56,552 bases of DNA from assembly GCA_944387145.1 (NCBI GenBank), contig CALXDU010000003.1, positions 1 through 56,552 on the forward strand, read 5' to 3'. The notes below the pieces were generated by a model, which saw only the letters and a list, made by a program, of their open reading frames with translations, made no database searches and was not told the DNA's origin. A program made the translations under genes and the position numbers. This stretch comes from an uncultured Oscillospiraceae bacterium (GTDB lineage: Bacteria; Bacillota; Clostridia; Oscillospirales; Oscillospiraceae). Shown piece by piece: positions 11,642-18,131 of the stretch (the stretch's first letter is position 1; each line of letters opens with the position of its first letter).

Positions 11642-12010
11642 TCAGCAGGTTTGATAGCAGTTATCCCCGTCGTGCTTGTCGTCGCAGCATCTGGGTGCGA
11701 ACTGTGTGGCAGGGAAGGGAATCCGGCTGAACATTTCGCAGGGATCTTCTCCGCTGCCGGGGGTTTCGCAGCATTCCTTGCAGGGAATGGCGTAGTCCAG
11801 AACCGGAACAATCAGCTGGGCTTCCCGCTCCAGCCGAACGATGGAGAACTGTCCCAGAGTAACAAAGAGCCGACGGCGGTCGCCGGAGAGTACCAGCTCT
11901 TCGTCGAACTGTCCGCGGATTGCGGCGGGAACCTGGCAGGGGCAGTCGTTGCAGGTGCATTCGCAGATATCCTTGACTTTGGAGCTGAGCACCATGGGGT
12001 CCAGTACCTC
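11642..12010 (-). CDS. C-terminal half of an interrupted gene (Cys-rich, unknown function)
   Basis: About 122 codons continue the frame of the N-terminal half at 17582-18058. At the junction the N half reads PTAVVEV and this half reads AAVEVLDPMVLSSK, sharing GAG GT in the same phase. The product is Cys-rich at both ends (CECTCNDCPC; CKECCETPG and a CC near the end) around a beta-rich core with LFVTLGQFSIVRLERE. No good start exists: the frame opens at a TTG without a ribosome site, and the first ATG (11995) has a poorly spaced GGAGG inside the coding sequence. Read alone it would be a short orphan; read as a fragment it completes a protein of about 274 residues. I recall similar uninterrupted proteins in related Clostridia, but this needs a search. 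Confidence 0.8.
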   Translation of the reverse strand, partial: EVLDPMVLSSKVKDICECTCNDCPCQVPAAIRGQFDEELVLSGDRRRLFVTLGQFSIVRLEREAQLIVPVLDYAIPCKECCETPGSGEDPCEMFSRIPFPATQFAPRCCDDKHDGDNCYQTC

Positions 12011-12028
12011 CACTGCTGCTCCCAATTA
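11984..12028 (-). other. Left junction (att site) of the intervening element
   Basis: The shared core GAGGT lies at 12010-12006 on the minus strand, about 16 bp beyond the recombinase stop codon. Short symmetric arms surround it: CAGT-GGAGGT-ACTG, and GAGCA/TGCTC at 12021-12017 and 11991-11987. Crossover here with the right site would restore the split gene. Confidence 0.65.
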
Positions 12029-13492
12029 GGGAGGTGGTAACGTTTTGAAAACGATGTTTACCTGCGCATCTTTGCTGACGGATATGTGATTCAGAATTTC
12101 CCGCAGATCGCCGTTGGTAAACCACTGCAAATGTAAAAAGCGGTGCATTTTCTCCTGTAATCTGAAATTTTCCTTGGAAGATGAGGGGATTTTCTCGCTT
12201 TGCTGAGAGATTCGGTCTAGCTCTTGCTGAATGGTCAGCAGCTTTGTCTTGAGTGCCTCCAGGGAGATCAGACCGTTGGCATACAGCTCCTGGTAACGCT
12301 CCATTTTGGCAAGAAGTTTTTCCTGTTTCAGCTCTTGGCGGATGCAGTGGTTTTCCGCTGGGACAGTCCGGGAAGAAAGCTGAGCCAACACCCGGGAGGT
12401 GAACGCTTCCGGGTCGCCGATCTGAGAGAGGATGAAGCGGCTGAGGGTTTCCATCAGTTCCGTCTCGTCCAGACTGACCCGGTTTTCACAGCCTTGGATG
12501 CCCTGCTGATCGTTGGTAACGCAGTGCCAGTATACCCGTGTGTTGGCGTAGGTGTAGGTTTTCCGGCAGAAGGAGCGGCCGCAGTGGTCGCATCGAATCA
12601 GGGTGGAAAACAGGTGTTTGCCGCTGTAACGTTCTGTATTACCAAGGGATGTGTCTGTCGCCCTTCGCTCCAGCCGAATCCGCTGAGCCTTCTGAAAGAC
12701 ATCGGATGTGACAATGGCCCATTCCGGCCGATTGTGGCGGAAATGATCTTCTTCCGGCAGCGCAATCTGCTTCCCGGTGAGAAAGTCTTGCACTTCATAC
12801 TTGTGATTGACCAAGGTACCGCAGTAGATGGGGTTCATGAGAACCCGGCGAACACCCCGGGCATCCCAATTCCCGCCGAACTTGGTTTTGTCCCCGTTCT
12901 GGTTCAGAATCTGGCTGATGCATCGGCACCCCAGCCCTTGCCGGGTATACAGGGAAAAAATCCTGCGCACCACATCCGCTTCCATGGGGTTAATTTCCAG
13001 CGTAAAATTGTCAATCCGATCGTAGCCAAATAGCCCCCGGGGAACACGGCCTTTTTCCGCATTGATGCGCTTTCCCCACTTGACACGCTTGGAAAGGTTG
13101 TTGCTTTCCTCCTGAGCCATGGCGCTGAACAGAGTCAGGATAAACTCGCTGTCTCCCATGGAATCCATATTCGCCGTCAAAAATAAGGTGCGAATGCCCA
13201 GGGCCTTCAGGGTGCGGATGCTTTGCAGAGCATCCACCGTATTTCTGGCAAAGCGGCTGATGTCCTTCACTACCACCATCTGAAATGCTCCGGTTTCGGC
13301 ATCGCCCATCAGCTGCTGGAAGGCTTCCCGCCGTTTGACGGAGGTTCCGCTGATGCCTTCGTCTGCGTACAGCCGGTATAATTCATGCCCATTTCGCTGG
13401 GCATAGGTCAGAAAGAATTCCTTCTGATGGTTCAGACTGTCAAGCTGTTCTTCTTTTTCCGTGGAAACCCGGCAGTAGGCGGCAATCTTCAT
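12026..13492 (-). CDS. Serine site-specific recombinase of the intervening element
   Basis: A 488-residue large serine recombinase. The resolvase domain (about 1-145) has the catalytic S10 in YCRVST, then GISGT at 47-50 and the VVVKDISRFARN block (73-84). A recombinase domain follows (about 155-270, GYDRI and MNPIYCGTL). Then come a zinc ribbon (about 300-335, CDHCGRSFC and paired Cys) and a coiled-coil C-terminal part (about 385-450). All expected catalytic regions look intact. Its ATG overlaps the TGA of the 51-aa gene, so they are coupled. It would act on the two junctions at 12006 and 17602. Confidence 0.93.
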   Translation of the reverse strand: MKIAAYCRVSTEKEEQLDSLNHQKEFFLTYAQRNGHELYRLYADEGISGTSVKRREAFQQLMGDAETGAFQMVVVKDISRFARNTVDALQSIRTLKALGIRTLFLTANMDSMGDSEFILTLFSAMAQEESNNLSKRVKWGKRINAEKGRVPRGLFGYDRIDNFTLEINPMEADVVRRIFSLYTRQGLGCRCISQILNQNGDKTKFGGNWDARGVRRVLMNPIYCGTLVNHKYEVQDFLTGKQIALPEEDHFRHNRPEWAIVTSDVFQKAQRIRLERRATDTSLGNTERYSGKHLFSTLIRCDHCGRSFCRKTYTYANTRVYWHCVTNDQQGIQGCENRVSLDETELMETLSRFILSQIGDPEAFTSRVLAQLSSRTVPAENHCIRQELKQEKLLAKMERYQELYANGLISLEALKTKLLTIQQELDRISQQSEKIPSSSKENFRLQEKMHRFLHLQWFTNGDLREILNHISVSKDAQVNIVFKTLPPP

Positions 13493-13644
13493 GGCTGGGT
13501 ACTTCCTTTTACCATATCAGGTTCTAAGCTCTCCGGCATTTCCGTAAGCTTTTCCAGCAGTAATTTTAGCAAAGCTTCTGTGAGGGCATCCGCTGTGTTG
13601 GGATTGACGATGGTATAAACTGGCTGAACAGATTTTTTTGCCAT
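13489..13644 (-). CDS. 51-aa protein coupled to the recombinase
   Basis: This short gene has a strong GGGAGGG site seven bases before its ATG and ends in an ATGA overlap with the recombinase start. The product begins MAKKSVQPVYTIVNPNT and continues with a Leu-rich amphipathic helix (ALTEALLKLLLEKLTEM). Size, position and coupling fit a recombination directionality factor, as SprB is for SprA, but no sequence match was recognised. It could also be an assembly partner or a regulator. Confidence 0.72.
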   Translation of the reverse strand: MAKKSVQPVYTIVNPNTADALTEALLKLLLEKLTEMPESLEPDMVKGSTQP

Positions 13645-13788
13645 AGATAATCCCTCCCAGGCATAGTCTATTGGGGCAATCCCAGCGCCATTACCAGGGA
13701 GGGATAAGAATCAAATGTGAACATTTTGTAAATTGTTGTAAACAAGTGAAACATTTTGATAGAAAAAATCGTCTATATAGTAAAGAAG

Positions 13789-13797
13789 AGTTTATAC
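13789..13797 (-). promoter_or_regulatory. Possible sporulation-type -10 element upstream of the recombinase operon
   Basis: GTATAAACT here resembles the GCATAAACT in front of the interrupted gene (18112-18104). No convincing -35 box is visible, so this is a weak call. Confidence 0.3.
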
Positions 13798-13859
13798 CGA
13801 CACTCCAAGAAAAAGAATAAAGGAGGACCTGGTCCTCTTTGGAAAGCTGTTGGATCGAT

Positions 13860-14282
13860 ATGAGTATGTTGGATCGTGTAAAAAACATATGCGGAGCGGA
13901 AACGGCGCTGGGTATCCAGTTTTGTTCCCCGGAAGCGGCCCGCGCTTACTTACCCCAGGGCAGCAGAATTTTCGGTGCGGCAGGGGAGAGTCTGTTCTTC
14001 TTTGCGGAAGGATATCAGGAGACGGTTTTTGCATTGGACATGGATACCGGAGACATCCACCCCTTGGCCTATGATTTTTCGGAATTTCTTCGTCTGATTC
14101 TGGCCTGCGGGTCAGCGGAATCCGTTGCCGGTACGGAACGGAAAGATTCCAGGGAATTGGGAACTCTCCAGCCGGGGCTGCGGGAGCTTCAGGAGGTTCT
14201 AAACCTGACCCCTATCCGAAATCCGAGAGAATATGTGCGCACCATTGGACAAGTTATTGATTGCAGCAGAATCCGGCAGTAA
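13860..14282 (+). CDS. Unknown protein, possibly SUKH/SMI1-like
   Basis: About 140 residues. The middle contains ESLFFFAEGY, VFALDMDTGDIHPLAYDFSEFLRLILACGS, and the C-terminus LNLTPIRNPREYV. This order resembles SMI1/KNR4 (SUKH) proteins, many of which act as immunity proteins, but the match is from memory. The start is uncertain: AGGAGG at 13821 lies in a small hairpin and is far from every start codon; ATG 13860 is taken. It is cargo inside the intervening element and precedes a second plus-strand gene by 56 bp. Confidence 0.65.
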   Translation: MSMLDRVKNICGAETALGIQFCSPEAARAYLPQGSRIFGAAGESLFFFAEGYQETVFALDMDTGDIHPLAYDFSEFLRLILACGSAESVAGTERKDSRELGTLQPGLRELQEVLNLTPIRNPREYVRTIGQVIDCSRIRQ

Positions 14283-14338
14283 TTTGTTGGCCAAAACCAA
14301 ACGGCGATGCAGCTGTGTGTTAAAGAGAGGTGTACCAT

Positions 14339-14767
14339 ATGAGCAGCTACATACTGATTGACACAACGGTAGAAGACAACACTTGGTGGAAAGATTTGAT
14401 TCAGGCCTGTGCAGTTCTGGGGGATGTGTTCGAAATCCATTGCTGGTCTGACGAAAGCGATGCGGCAAAGCTTGCCCTGCGGTACGGGCGGAAAGTCGCC
14501 TCCACCTGGCGGGACGGAACGGTGATTCTGGGAACCATCACCAAAGACTTCCTTTCCTATCTGACCCGGATGCCCAAACCCTCGGACACGGAAATCTATA
14601 ATAAGATGACACCTTTTTTTACAATCCGCCTGGGGGGCAGATTGTATAGTGAGCATTACGGGACGGAAGTCATCATTTCCAAGGTACCGGAAAAGCAGGA
14701 ACCCTGTGTTGACCGGATCTTAAGCAGGGTGGAGCGCTGCGGAACGGTCCACCGAAATGTCCAATAA
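14339..14767 (+). CDS. Unknown protein, element cargo
   Basis: A 142-residue soluble protein with a GAGAGGTG ribosome site. It has FEIHCWSDESD, then KLALRYGRKV, a central TDTEIYNKMTPFFTIRL and HYGTEVIISKV. No family is recognised with confidence. It probably forms an operon with the gene at 13860, and a strong terminator follows. The pair may be toxin-antitoxin or immunity-like genes, but nothing here proves it. Confidence 0.7.
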   Translation: MSSYILIDTTVEDNTWWKDLIQACAVLGDVFEIHCWSDESDAAKLALRYGRKVASTWRDGTVILGTITKDFLSYLTRMPKPSDTEIYNKMTPFFTIRLGGRLYSEHYGTEVIISKVPEKQEPCVDRILSRVERCGTVHRNVQ

Positions 14768-14772
14768 CTGCC

Positions 14773-14816
14773 AACACGGCACACCGGGAAAATCTTCCGG
14801 TGTGCCGTGTTTTTGA
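14773..14816 (+). terminator. Terminator of the plus-strand cargo pair
   Basis: Hairpin ACACGGCACACCGG/CCGGTGTGCCGTGT followed by a T run. Confidence 0.88.
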
Positions 14817-14857
14817 TATCCAACAATTTCAGATTTACCCGTTGATTCTCACAAGGA

Positions 14858-14892
14858 AACCCGGCACGCAGAAAACTGCGTGCCGGGCGTTT
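14858..14892 (-). terminator. Terminator of the sigma/anti-sigma/lipoprotein operon
   Basis: On the minus strand CCCGGCACGCAG/CTGCGTGCCGGG with a TTTT loop, then TTTCCTTGT. Confidence 0.75.
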
Positions 14893-14901
14893 CTATGGGG
14901 T

Positions 14902-15897
14902 TTAGCGGAAGCATTCCAGTGTGCCGGTTTCCATAGGATAGGCAAAGAACAGATCATCGACGAAACCGCCGCTTCTCTGTGCCTGGCAGAAAAATACCCA
15001 GGCTGGACGCAGATGACAAATGTTATCAATGTCAAATTCTGCGAAATATTGCACATCGACGCTGACTACTTCCATGATTTTGTCGTCACCAGACATGTGG
15101 GCGAGAAAATCTGTTTTGAGCTTCTCCGCTGCTTCTTCCAGGGTACATTTGGGAACAATAGCTTCCCGACTGATTTCCTTCAGAAGGAAAGAGCCACCGC
15201 AAGAAAACATCCCTTCTTCGGAAATATGAGCGGAAATACTGCGAAAGGGAACGTAACCAGTCACCGGCAATCCCTCAAAATAGGGTTGCAACTTTGCATA
15301 GTAAGCGCCTTTTCCGTCCTCAGTGACATTCGCTGTGACATTCCAGGGCGCAAGGGAAAAACAAGAATACCGGGCAATTTCCTCTCCGACAGCCTTTGCC
15401 GCCTCAGCAGCGGTAGAGGTGAGATCGCCGGGAATCTGGTCGGTGATATATCCCCGCTCGAATGCGTGCCCTTCATCCAAATCCTTCCCATTCAAATCCC
15501 GGGTGACATCCAGATAGTACCCGTCTCCTGTGATGTCTTGAGAGAAAGACAGTAAAAACTGCTCTCCTTCTTCCTTCACCCATTCGATTCGTCCGTCTTC
15601 CCGTGCAAACTTTTTTGCATCCGGGTAGGCGGAATAAACATAATCCTGCACAAACCGCCCCAGGGCTTCCTCATCCAGTGCCAGCTGGATGTGATTCAGC
15701 GTTTCCGGCTCCGGCAGCTCCAGGGAGCCCTTCAGAATCAGGGTACGGCCTTCTTCCGTCACGGTTTGGGACAGCTCGGTTACGCTGCCGGCTTCCCAGA
15801 GGGCAGCCTGGGTGGGCTGAGTTTCTGCCTGGGGAGCGGCGCAGCCGGTCAGACAGAAAATGGCCAGCAGCAGAGCAAACCAGTTTGATTTTTTCAT
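14902..15897 (-). CDS. Lipoprotein of unknown function, element cargo
   Basis: Start at 15897 has AAAGGAGG. The 331-residue product has a type II signal with lipobox LTGC (C19), so it is exported and lipid-anchored. The mature part is acidic, with DITGDGYYLDVTRD and GLPVTGYVPFRS. I do not recognise a family. It is third in an operon after a sigma factor and its anti-sigma partner (gap 18 bp), so it may be a regulon member or a sensor accessory. Confidence 0.8.
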   Translation of the reverse strand: MKKSNWFALLLAIFCLTGCAAPQAETQPTQAALWEAGSVTELSQTVTEEGRTLILKGSLELPEPETLNHIQLALDEEALGRFVQDYVYSAYPDAKKFAREDGRIEWVKEEGEQFLLSFSQDITGDGYYLDVTRDLNGKDLDEGHAFERGYITDQIPGDLTSTAAEAAKAVGEEIARYSCFSLAPWNVTANVTEDGKGAYYAKLQPYFEGLPVTGYVPFRSISAHISEEGMFSCGGSFLLKEISREAIVPKCTLEEAAEKLKTDFLAHMSGDDKIMEVVSVDVQYFAEFDIDNICHLRPAWVFFCQAQRSGGFVDDLFFAYPMETGTLECFR

Positions 15898-15915
15898 AAT
15901 CATCATGCCTCCTTT

Positions 15916-16869
15916 TTACTTTGAAGAAGCATTCTGGACATTATCCAGAGTAAAGGACACAATCTGCTCCTGATTGGGGGCATAGGTTTGGTAGGCATGC
16001 CCGTCCAGTTCCAGGTACCAGTATTGGTAGTTGGATTTAACCTTTAACTCCACTGTGATGGAGGCCTGATTTTTTCCTACATCCGGTAAGGGGTTCAGGT
16101 AAAGGCAAGTCCCTGCTTCTGTGTACATATCGGCGATTCCGATTTCATCGGGATTGCCGGTCATGGCGGTGATGGTATCCACCCCGTTGACCAGTATGTG
16201 ATCTCCTACATATAGATCCTGGGTGACCACGCAGACGTAGCCATTTTGCACAAGCAGCTGCCACATTTTCTCATAAGCCTCCGGGGACAGCATCTGCCGG
16301 AGTTCTCCTTCCATGGCCAGAGCGTCCCGTTTCATGGAATGCTCCTGAACGTATTCCGGCAGGGGGCCGTACTGGGATTCGTAGGTCTTTCGATCAATGC
16401 CGCCGAAAGGCATCAGATTCGTACCTTTGAGCTGCCGCAGAAGAGCTTCGTCCACCTGATATCCCACCACCGGCTCCGGCAGTATTTCCTCCAGATTGTA
16501 TCCCAGCAGAATGGTTTCCCCGTCATAGTAGCGCTGAGAGAGGACAAACTTGGATGCGTCCATCTTGGGCAGTTCCACCACTTCCGGAATCTGGGTTTGG
16601 CTTGCCTGCTCTGCCTGGGCGTATATGGTCTCCTGAGGGAACTGCTCCTTCAGCAGTCCGAAAATGGAAGGAACCCATCCGGCAGCCACGGCGGTTACCG
16701 CCAGCAGGCTTACGCAAATTGCAGCCGCCAGGGCAACCACAATCGCCCTGCGCAGAGTACGGACGCCGCTTGTGCTTTCCGTGCTTGTCTGCCGGGCCTG
16801 GCTGTCCACCAAATCCAGGAAACGATCATCCACATATTCCATGGCGTCAAACAGCTTTTTGCTTCTCAT
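15916..16869 (-). CDS. Anti-sigma-factor-like membrane protein
   Basis: A 317-residue single-pass protein: a cytosolic N-terminal part (1-40) starting KKLFDAMEYVDDRFLDLV, a transmembrane helix (about 42-66) and a large extracytoplasmic domain. This plan, and the ATGA overlap with the sigma gene upstream, match membrane anti-sigma factors that hold an ECF-like sigma until a signal arrives outside. No typical zinc anti-sigma motif is seen, and the outer domain is not recognised. Confidence 0.78.
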   Translation of the reverse strand: MRSKKLFDAMEYVDDRFLDLVDSQARQTSTESTSGVRTLRRAIVVALAAAICVSLLAVTAVAAGWVPSIFGLLKEQFPQETIYAQAEQASQTQIPEVVELPKMDASKFVLSQRYYDGETILLGYNLEEILPEPVVGYQVDEALLRQLKGTNLMPFGGIDRKTYESQYGPLPEYVQEHSMKRDALAMEGELRQMLSPEAYEKMWQLLVQNGYVCVVTQDLYVGDHILVNGVDTITAMTGNPDEIGIADMYTEAGTCLYLNPLPDVGKNQASITVELKVKSNYQYWYLELDGHAYQTYAPNQEQIVSFTLDNVQNASSK

Positions 16870-17426
16870 AGTACCACTCCTTCCTGCTGCAAATGGCTGC
16901 GCAGCTGCTGCCGCAGTCGGCTTAACCGGTATTTGACTTTACGCTGGGGCAGATGATATCGCTGGCTGATGTCCGGAACGGACATGGCGTAATAATACCG
17001 GCTCAGAAAAATGGCGCAGTCCTCCGCCGTCACACTGCCGAGAAACCGGTTCAGACTGACGCCGATTTGTTTTGCCTCCCACAGTTTCTCTGTATTGTTC
17101 CTCCTGTCCGGCAGACATTCATCCAATTCGGAAAACAGAACCGTCATATGGGGATTGCGCCGCTTTGCGGTATTGTAATCCATCCGGTCATAGGATAAAT
17201 TTCGGGTAATCCGTGACAGGAAATGCTTCAGTACATTCGGCTTGGTAGGGGGGATGGCATTCCACGCTGCCCAGTATGTATCGCCTACCACTTCTTCGGT
17301 ATCTTCCTGGCAGTGCAGGATGTTAAATGCCACTTGGCTCAGGTAATGACCGTATTTTTTCTGTGTCTGCGCAATGGCGTCTTCGCTGCGCTGAAAATAC
17401 AGACGGACAATTTCGGTATCTTCCAC
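16866..17426 (-). CDS. ECF-type sigma-70 factor
   Basis: Start is the GTG at 17426, with AAGGAGG seven bases upstream; no ATG in frame nearby is served by a site. The 186-residue product has a region 2 (about 15-75, including EEVVGDTYWAAWNAI) and a region 4 helix-turn-helix (about 130-180, with MSVPDISQRYHLPQRKVKYRLSRLRQQL). It lacks regions 1 and 3, as ECF factors do. It heads a coupled operon with the anti-sigma gene. It lies inside the excisable element, so mother cells that excise it would lose this regulator. Confidence 0.88.
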   Translation of the reverse strand: MEDTEIVRLYFQRSEDAIAQTQKKYGHYLSQVAFNILHCQEDTEEVVGDTYWAAWNAIPPTKPNVLKHFLSRITRNLSYDRMDYNTAKRRNPHMTVLFSELDECLPDRRNNTEKLWEAKQIGVSLNRFLGSVTAEDCAIFLSRYYYAMSVPDISQRYHLPQRKVKYRLSRLRQQLRSHLQQEGVVL

Positions 17427-17530
17427 TGTGACACCTCCTTTTGTTTTATAAGGCCTTACACCTATATAGTAGGAGATTCCCGGGAAAAGGACAAGCTTCT
17501 GTAAAAAGCGTACGCAATTTTTATCTATAG

Positions 17531-17560
17531 AAAAACGGCGCCATATCAAAATGGCTCCGC
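17531..17560 (-). terminator. Terminator just inside the element, after the N-terminal half
   Basis: On the minus strand CGGAGCCAT/ATGGCGCCG (one mismatch) precedes TTTTTC. It would end transcripts of the truncated N-terminal half while the element is in place and is removed on excision. Confidence 0.65.
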
Positions 17561-17575
17561 TCAAGGGATGTATAT

Positions 17576-17622
17576 ACCTGCCTATTTGTGGGCAATGACC
17601 TCTACTACGGCGGTAGGCAGGT
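17576..17622 (-). other. Right junction (att site) with 9-bp inverted repeat
   Basis: Perfect arms ACCTGCCTA (17622-17614 as read on the minus strand) and TAGGCAGGT (17584-17576) enclose 29 bp. The centre, position 17599, falls within the GAGGT core (17602-17598) shared with the left junction. Symmetric arms around a short core are what a serine recombinase dimer recognises. Confidence 0.72.
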
Positions 17623-18058
17623 TGGTGCACAAACGGGTCACGCCGTCTGCCTCGCCGATGCGGGTATCGCTGCGGTAGATGTGGGAGTGGCTGTCTTCGC
17701 CGCACAGAACGGCCCGCTTGGAGAACACGGCCAGACCGTACAGGGTGGCGGGACGGGAAACGCCTACCACGGCGTCTGCCAGAATCCGATAGTAGAATGT
17801 GATATCGATGCAGTAATGGTTGCGGTTGAAGGCCAAAGGCTCTACATCAATGTAGGTGCACAGCAGTTCGGCGCAGCGCACCCGGGCGTTGGTGGCTTTG
17901 TCCAGAATGGCTTGGGAACTGGTGGTCAGATATACCCGAAGGTCTTCGATGCAGTCCTTATCCCGACAGGAGTCGGTGATCTTCCGTGTGTGGATGGACA
18001 TTGCCTGGCGCAGATCCTGAGGATCACAGCACACAGTGTCCTTTTTTTGCTCTGACAT
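17582..18058 (-). CDS. N-terminal half of an interrupted gene (unknown function)
   Basis: The frame starts at an ATG with GGGAGG and encodes 158 residues, but only the first 153 belong to the host gene; the last few (VIAHK) and the TAG come from the element. The sequence includes SCRDKDCIEDLRVYLTTSSQ, then CAELLCTYIDVEPLAFNRNHYCIDITFYYRI and a beta-rich stretch ending LPTAVVEV. Joined to 11642-12010 it gives about 274 residues, Cys-rich, with no signal peptide. Similar proteins in Clostridia are, as I recall, unnamed. A sigma-K-like promoter suggests a late sporulation role such as a spore coat protein, which is inference. Confidence 0.82.
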   Translation of the reverse strand: MSEQKKDTVCCDPQDLRQAMSIHTRKITDSCRDKDCIEDLRVYLTTSSQAILDKATNARVRCAELLCTYIDVEPLAFNRNHYCIDITFYYRILADAVVGVSRPATLYGLAVFSKRAVLCGEDSHSHIYRSDTRIGEADGVTRLCTNLPTAVVEVIAHK

Positions 18059-18103
18059 TGGAATTACCTCCCGAATTGAGAATAAGCATAGCGCTTATAG
18101 GAC

Positions 18104-18131
18104 AGTTTATGCAGAGATTTTCGGGAAGTGC
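18104..18131 (-). promoter_or_regulatory. Sigma-K/E-like promoter of the interrupted gene
   Basis: On the minus strand GCAC (18131-18128), 16 bp, then CATAAACTG (18111-18103). Sigma-K promoters have AC, 16-17 bp, CATAnnnTA; sigma-E has CATACACT as -10. No vegetative promoter is seen. A small dyad ATAAGC/GCTTAT lies between the promoter and ribosome site. Confidence 0.45.

Follow-up and report, generated by a model that had tools for sequence, protein, structure and literature searches.

In the 56,552-nucleotide stretch of DNA analyzed here (‘the window’), the gene for a large serine recombinase (LSR) and the 51-codon gene that precedes it are best explained as the recombination unit of a 5.6-kb element inserted in a conserved gene, which we call ‘X’. 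To judge from the sequence, this is very likely an intervening element that can be excised to restore X, and the 51-aa protein probably serves the adjacent LSR as its recombination directionality factor (RDF). An earlier note on this DNA had proposed the RDF role from the small gene itself. Its description of the locus was correct, but its coordinates take in only a small part of the element, which spans about 12010–17602, and it missed the interrupted gene, though X is the strongest argument for its own proposal: an excision factor is expected because the element must leave in order to rebuild X. The element carries seven genes: the recombinase, the 51-aa gene, two short genes on the plus strand, and genes for a lipoprotein-like protein, a DUF4179 protein and an ECF sigma factor. 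The features are:

11642–12025, minus strand: 3' part of X, an ORF of 127 aa whose first residues belong to the element (pN/pS 0.05)
11984–12036, no strand: attR, the junction of the element with the 3' part of X, core GA at 12010–12009
12010–17602, no strand: the complete intervening element, with about 5,592 bp from one core to the other
12026–13492, minus strand: LSR, 488 aa, with Resolvase, Recombinase and Zn-ribbon domains by domain search (pN/pS 0.16)
13489–13644, minus strand: the 51-aa gene, candidate RDF, from its ORF, SD sequence, ATGA overlap and homologs beside LSRs
13665–13695, minus strand: promoter-like GGTAAT-N17-AATAGACT upstream of the 51-aa gene, no more than suggestive, in the window no better than shuffles
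13839–14282, plus strand: cargo ORF of 147 aa, p147 (pN/pS 0.17)
14330–14767, plus strand: cargo ORF of 145 aa, p145, very conserved (pN/pS 0.03)
14902–15906, minus strand: cargo, lipoprotein-like ORF of 334 aa, weak matches only
15916–16869, minus strand: cargo, DUF4179 protein of 317 aa, probably an anti-sigma factor (E 3e-4, below the Pfam cut-off)
16866–17426, minus strand: cargo, ECF-type sigma factor of 186 aa, from profile matches
17576–17628, no strand: attL, the junction of the 5' part of X with the element, core GA at 17602–17601
17582–18058, minus strand: 5' part of X, an ORF of 158 aa ending TAVVEV-IAHK, of which the last residues belong to the element (pN/pS 0.06)
18103–18130, minus strand: sigK/sigE-like promoter of X, CAC-N15-GCATAAACTG, conserved in the genus

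Among the cargo genes, p145 is almost invariant between species despite its location in the element. The genomes with which the window was compared are mostly draft MAGs, and the counts given below are raw, ignoring phylogeny.

A conserved gene split in two

The ORF that directly follows the recombinase (12025–11642) encodes the C-terminal portion of a conserved protein. A homolog of this part occurs in 52 of 60 relatives, mostly as the end of a 270–310-aa frame, and the N-terminal part lies 5.6 kb upstream on the same strand, at 18058–17582. Together they make up X, a conserved Clostridial gene of ~280 aa, intact in most relatives and split in the window by the element. X has no family in Pfam or NCBIfam and no match in the PDB; a single Orexin match, in one member, was taken as chance. 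The N-half reads TAVVEV and then, within the element, IAHK and a stop; the C-half begins VEVLDPMVL, preceded by element residues ending GAA. Intact homologs read TAVVEVLDPMVL. A crossover at the shared GA core would rejoin the halves in frame, as TAVVEV/LDPMVL, and the joint is in frame at all genus loci examined for which both ends were read. By sequence, the two att sites are thus such that recombination between them restores the X frame, as expected of an intervening element. When GA is taken as the crossover dinucleotide, the arms of the reconstructed attP form inverted repeats around it, with 15/26 matches in the window (p=0.001 versus shuffles), 16/26 in L035 and L036, 18/26 in L041 and 22/26 in L039; in L040 there are only 12/26 (p=0.067). 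Palindromic arms around a core, as in this reconstruction, are what one expects of a site used by a serine recombinase. The attB is the sequence of X itself.

Both halves are under strong purifying selection. Among close relatives with the same element, pN/pS is as low for the C-half as for the N-half (0.05 and 0.06), and in the f70 family, which carries other elements, it is 0.01–0.05 for the N-half and 0.10–0.17 for the C-half; the idea that X is a pseudogene was rejected for this reason. The C-half has TTG as its only possible start, with no SD before it. Because the halves are so constrained, and because the C-half lacks a good start, X is evidently rebuilt and still made, and rejoining by excision is the simplest reading. 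The element might instead be a fossil, with X permanently split and its halves now separate proteins, or inactive, without excision. That the split occurs in only 11 of 136 genus genomes would agree with this. Selection on the two halves, and on the LSR, argues the other way, as do the poor start of the C-half and the in-frame joint at these genus loci, and we regard a fossil as quite improbable. An excisable element that restores X, by contrast, we consider very likely.

The same gene has been invaded many times. At L035–L042, in the genus, the recombinase lies directly before the C-half, and the N-halves are present in the same genomes; X is also split in G176 and G025 and, in the family and order, in G375 and G579 (in G579 the C-half alone was found). 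Genomes of other families have the split at this very residue: G212, G211, G313, G248, G347, G364, G292, G197, G224 and G275; near the halves in G224, no clear recombinase of the window clade was found. Altogether, elements from 1.3 to 59 kb long interrupt X at this site in six sampled families. The smallest, of about 1.3 kb, is in G248. An element of about 21 kb, in G105 (C14, L061–L062), carries genes for several large proteins with the signal LSALSLLLCVSMLVGSTFAWFTD, which from their signal sequences we take to be TasA/SipW-like. The 59-kb element, in G104 (C1:7459–66000, L058–L060), looks like an integrative conjugative element (ICE); its genes, which we named by eye from sequence, are presumably ParA/ParB-like, relaxase-like, secretion-like and others of ICE type. 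A prophage-like sequence from IMG/VR (L129) adjoins an N-half. In several loci—L110 (G176), L111 (G025), L129, L095 and L099—the recombinase unit adjoins the N-half, or points away from X, so that gene order within the elements is not constant. In G253 (C46:73149–81205, L093) the split falls at a different residue of X, about 73, and in G249 (L100–L102) there are two splits, at about residues 98 and 155. The recombinases in these gaps belong to clades other than that of the window LSR, and the splits are, on this evidence of sequence, independent invasions of the same gene.

X is probably a mother-cell sporulation gene. It is present in 77 of 196 genomes of the class, and the sporulation gene spoIVA in 146 of the 196; spoIVA accompanies X in 75 of the 77 genomes and occurs in 71 of the 119 without X (Fisher p=2e-10, on raw counts that ignore phylogeny). 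In addition to the conserved promoter-like sequence in the genus, CATA-type -10 sequences precede X in other families (CATAGTATA in L076 and CATACAATA in L078), and all of these upstream sequences resemble the consensus of mother-cell sigK/sigE promoters. Elsewhere in the genome the pattern of the X promoter has one other match, in a region that looks coding. Just downstream of the X -10, the window (18060–18103, minus strand) and its relatives have an inverted repeat, ATAAGC...GCTTAT, which is common in the genus and may serve as an operator or form a hairpin at the 5' end of the mRNA.

The small gene and its recombinase

The 51-aa ORF (13644–13489, minus strand) starts with ATG and encodes the protein MAKKSVQPVYTIVNPNTADALTEALLKLLLEKLTEMPESLEPDMVKGSTQP. 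The earlier note's description of its translation signals is confirmed: a strong SD-like sequence, GGGAGGG, lies immediately 5' of the ORF, and the stop codon TGA (13491–13489) overlaps the ATG of the recombinase (13492–13490) to form ATGA. The note also placed the protein in no known family, and this, too, stands. There is no match in Pfam, in NCBIfam or among phages, and no sequence similarity to known RDFs was found; in the PDB there is nothing meaningful, the best matches being repetitive RecA fusions, which we dismissed as repeat-fusion artefacts. An AlphaFold (AF2) model is weak, with one helix and a pTM of 0.36. Among close relatives, selection on the gene is only moderate: the pooled pN/pS is 0.51 in frame versus 0.59 and 1.17 in the two alternative frames, with values of 0.17–0.49 for residues 1–34 and a looser C-terminus (residues 35–51). 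Next to close recombinases the homologs are 76–94% identical. Next to recombinases that are 62–65% identical they are 30–39% identical, and conserve an NPN motif and a helix region. It is mainly because of these divergent homologs that we judge the gene to be genuine.

The earlier note had suggested checking whether the two genes occur together across genomes, and for the most part they do. The small gene lies just upstream of the LSR in the window, in L035–L042 and, more diverged, in L043 and L044. A profile search of the genus found matches in 12 of 136 genomes, 11 of them with an adjoining LSR. In the twelfth, G033 (C2:5393–5482; L075, L112), the homolog lies in an ICE-like stretch, with no LSR found within the 12 kb read, and X is intact. 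In the order, 5 of 345 genomes match, the window's own included, and each of them has an LSR of the clade; it is adjacent to the small gene in four, and in G430 it is 1.5 kb downstream, with other genes between. Beyond these, the small protein of L087 matches the profile at E=1e-4 and that of L099 marginally; the matches of small ORFs in L086 and L092 are non-significant, so these are candidates by position only. A human faecal virome contig of 6.4 kb (L130, MT838016.1) encodes a serine recombinase with 44% identity, and no small gene was found upstream of it. Nearly all the full-length LSRs examined have a homolog of the 51-aa gene shortly upstream. A small protein encoded in the same element as its LSR is what one expects of an RDF; G033 and L130 go against co-occurrence. 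The note's proposal is partly supported: linkage to the LSR, the need to rebuild X and the absence of the small gene beside truncated LSRs, described below, speak in favor, and the weak cases L086, L092 and L099, with L130, against. The moderate selection on the small gene, its single-helix model and its lack of similarity to known RDFs also count against an RDF.

Might the ORF instead be a leader that sets LSR translation by coupling, its peptide having no function? The ATGA overlap, the strong SD, the moderate pN/pS and the loose C-terminus could all be so explained. But the overlap is found in the window lineage, L041, L042 and L044, whereas L038 and L040 have about 105 bp between the LSR and the small gene, which is conserved all the same; given this spacing, what is conserved is not the coupling itself. 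The intervening genes in G430, and the motif and helix region that persist at 30–39% identity, further oppose a leader, which we consider very unlikely. We judge the protein to be a candidate RDF of a new small-protein family.

We propose the following mechanism. Alone, the LSR would integrate attP into attB, at the codons of X for VVEV/LDPM. The 51-aa protein, made together with the LSR, would bind its zinc-domain/coiled-coil region and switch it to attL x attR recombination, upon which the element would leave as a circle and X would be restored in frame. The sequences show the split gene, its att sites and in-frame junction, the selection on its halves and the linkage of the small gene to the LSR; from these we infer the excision in the cell, its timing, the binding to the C-terminal region and the RDF activity. 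As to regulation, a GGYATT-N16/17-AATAGAnT-like sequence precedes the small gene at a constant position in the window and in L035–L042, except L039. When sequences before the small gene were compared with the sigE consensus, the best match was significant in L039, G176, G025 and L086, and in the window it did not exceed that in shuffled sequence (p=0.40). Control of the unit by the mother cell is a hypothesis that these sequences suggest.

Recombinases that lack the C-terminal region

At five loci that split X—L088–L091 (family f70; G313, G248, G347 and G364) and L095 (G197)—the LSR stops at residue 279–282, between the Recombinase domain and the Zn-ribbon, so that the zinc/coiled-coil region is missing. 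None has a homolog of the small gene upstream; in L095, where the other end of the element lies on a different contig, this absence is local only. These short LSRs (~280 aa, catalytic plus recombinase domain) are under purifying selection (pN/pS 0.11–0.31), and their micro-elements still split X. The whole element of L089 consists of the short LSR and a GAF-type gene, which by eye we take to encode a free-methionine-sulfoxide reductase. L095 and L099 group together in the tree, and the LSR of L099 retains a C-terminal region; if this grouping is right, truncation arose at least twice.

The RDF gp3 binds the zinc domain of its LSR near the coiled coil (PMC5814800); for phiC31 and A118, the place of RDF binding is the zinc domain or the base of the coiled coil. 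Since known RDFs bind this region, the loss together of the region and the small gene is what the RDF reading predicts; it is a correlation across five loci and two or so events. The same loss, and the co-occurrence with the LSR, would also fit another partner that binds there, and the 51-aa protein could be an accessory of a different kind—an inhibitor, a stabilizer or a chaperone—with the RDF role falling to another gene of the element or to a host factor. The window-lineage element does have other conserved small genes, p145 and p147. By tblastn, however, neither was found in the more distant elements L038–L042, where the small gene was, and the only established partner of the zinc/coiled-coil region known to us is the RDF. 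We therefore think a different accessory unlikely, and the RDF reading remains the one that we favor. More tentatively, it is possible, if somewhat doubtful, that X is a class-wide target of gene-splitting elements, and that in two lineages, f70 and f40, the element has been reduced to one whose LSR has shed the zinc/coiled-coil region together with the need for an RDF.

Comparison with known systems

The element appears, by analogy, to work like skinCd, gin and SPbeta. SkinCd of Clostridioides difficile comprises the LSR CD1231 and a 72-aa RDF, CD1234, needed for excision and not for integration (PMC5025042). As in the window, where X is a probable sporulation gene, it lies in a sporulation gene and pairs an LSR with a small protein. 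Its target, however, is sigK, and CD1234 has its own sigE/SpoIIID promoter, whereas the small gene of the window lineage overlaps the LSR. In SPbeta of Bacillus subtilis, the LSR SprA (YokA) and the small RDF SprB (YotN) rebuild spsM in sporulation (PMC6957869), and the structure of the integrase–RDF complex has been solved (9DXD; PMC12412911). The profile of the window LSR matches the SprA of 9DXD and 9DXH; that of the 51-aa family, at E values up to 10, has no match in the SprB of 9DXD. SPbeta, unlike the window element, is a full prophage. Both skinCd and SPbeta regulate the RDF separately, whereas the small gene of the window would be transcribed jointly with the LSR, a point against its being an RDF. 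The gin element, in gerE of Bacillus cereus, requires both GirC and GirX for excision in vitro (PMC5595907). Like the window element it is a non-phage intervening element, but it has three recombinases and another target gene, while the candidate unit of the window is two of seven genes. The yin element, in yabG of Clostridium botulinum, is likewise a Clostridial intervening element in a sporulation gene (for X, a probable one); it was found by its authors in no other strain or species (PMC10747680), whereas the splitting of X recurs across families.

We judge the window element to be of a known kind, that of skin, SPbeta and gin, and its target gene and small-protein family to be new. Genes split by elements that leave in development include sigK, gerE and spsM, and yabG is a similar case. 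X adds an uncharacterized and widespread Clostridial target, which in several families is interrupted at a single codon position by elements that range from an ICE-like element down to micro-elements of ~1.3 kb. The series from full-length LSRs with the small gene to truncated LSRs without it makes the control of directionality in serine recombinases directly testable. If the tentative reading given above is true, the ~280-aa enzymes would be natural examples of recombinases that excise without an RDF, having shed the RDF family to which the small gene belongs. The small gene/LSR loci are, in addition, a set of compact candidate LSR/RDF pairs.
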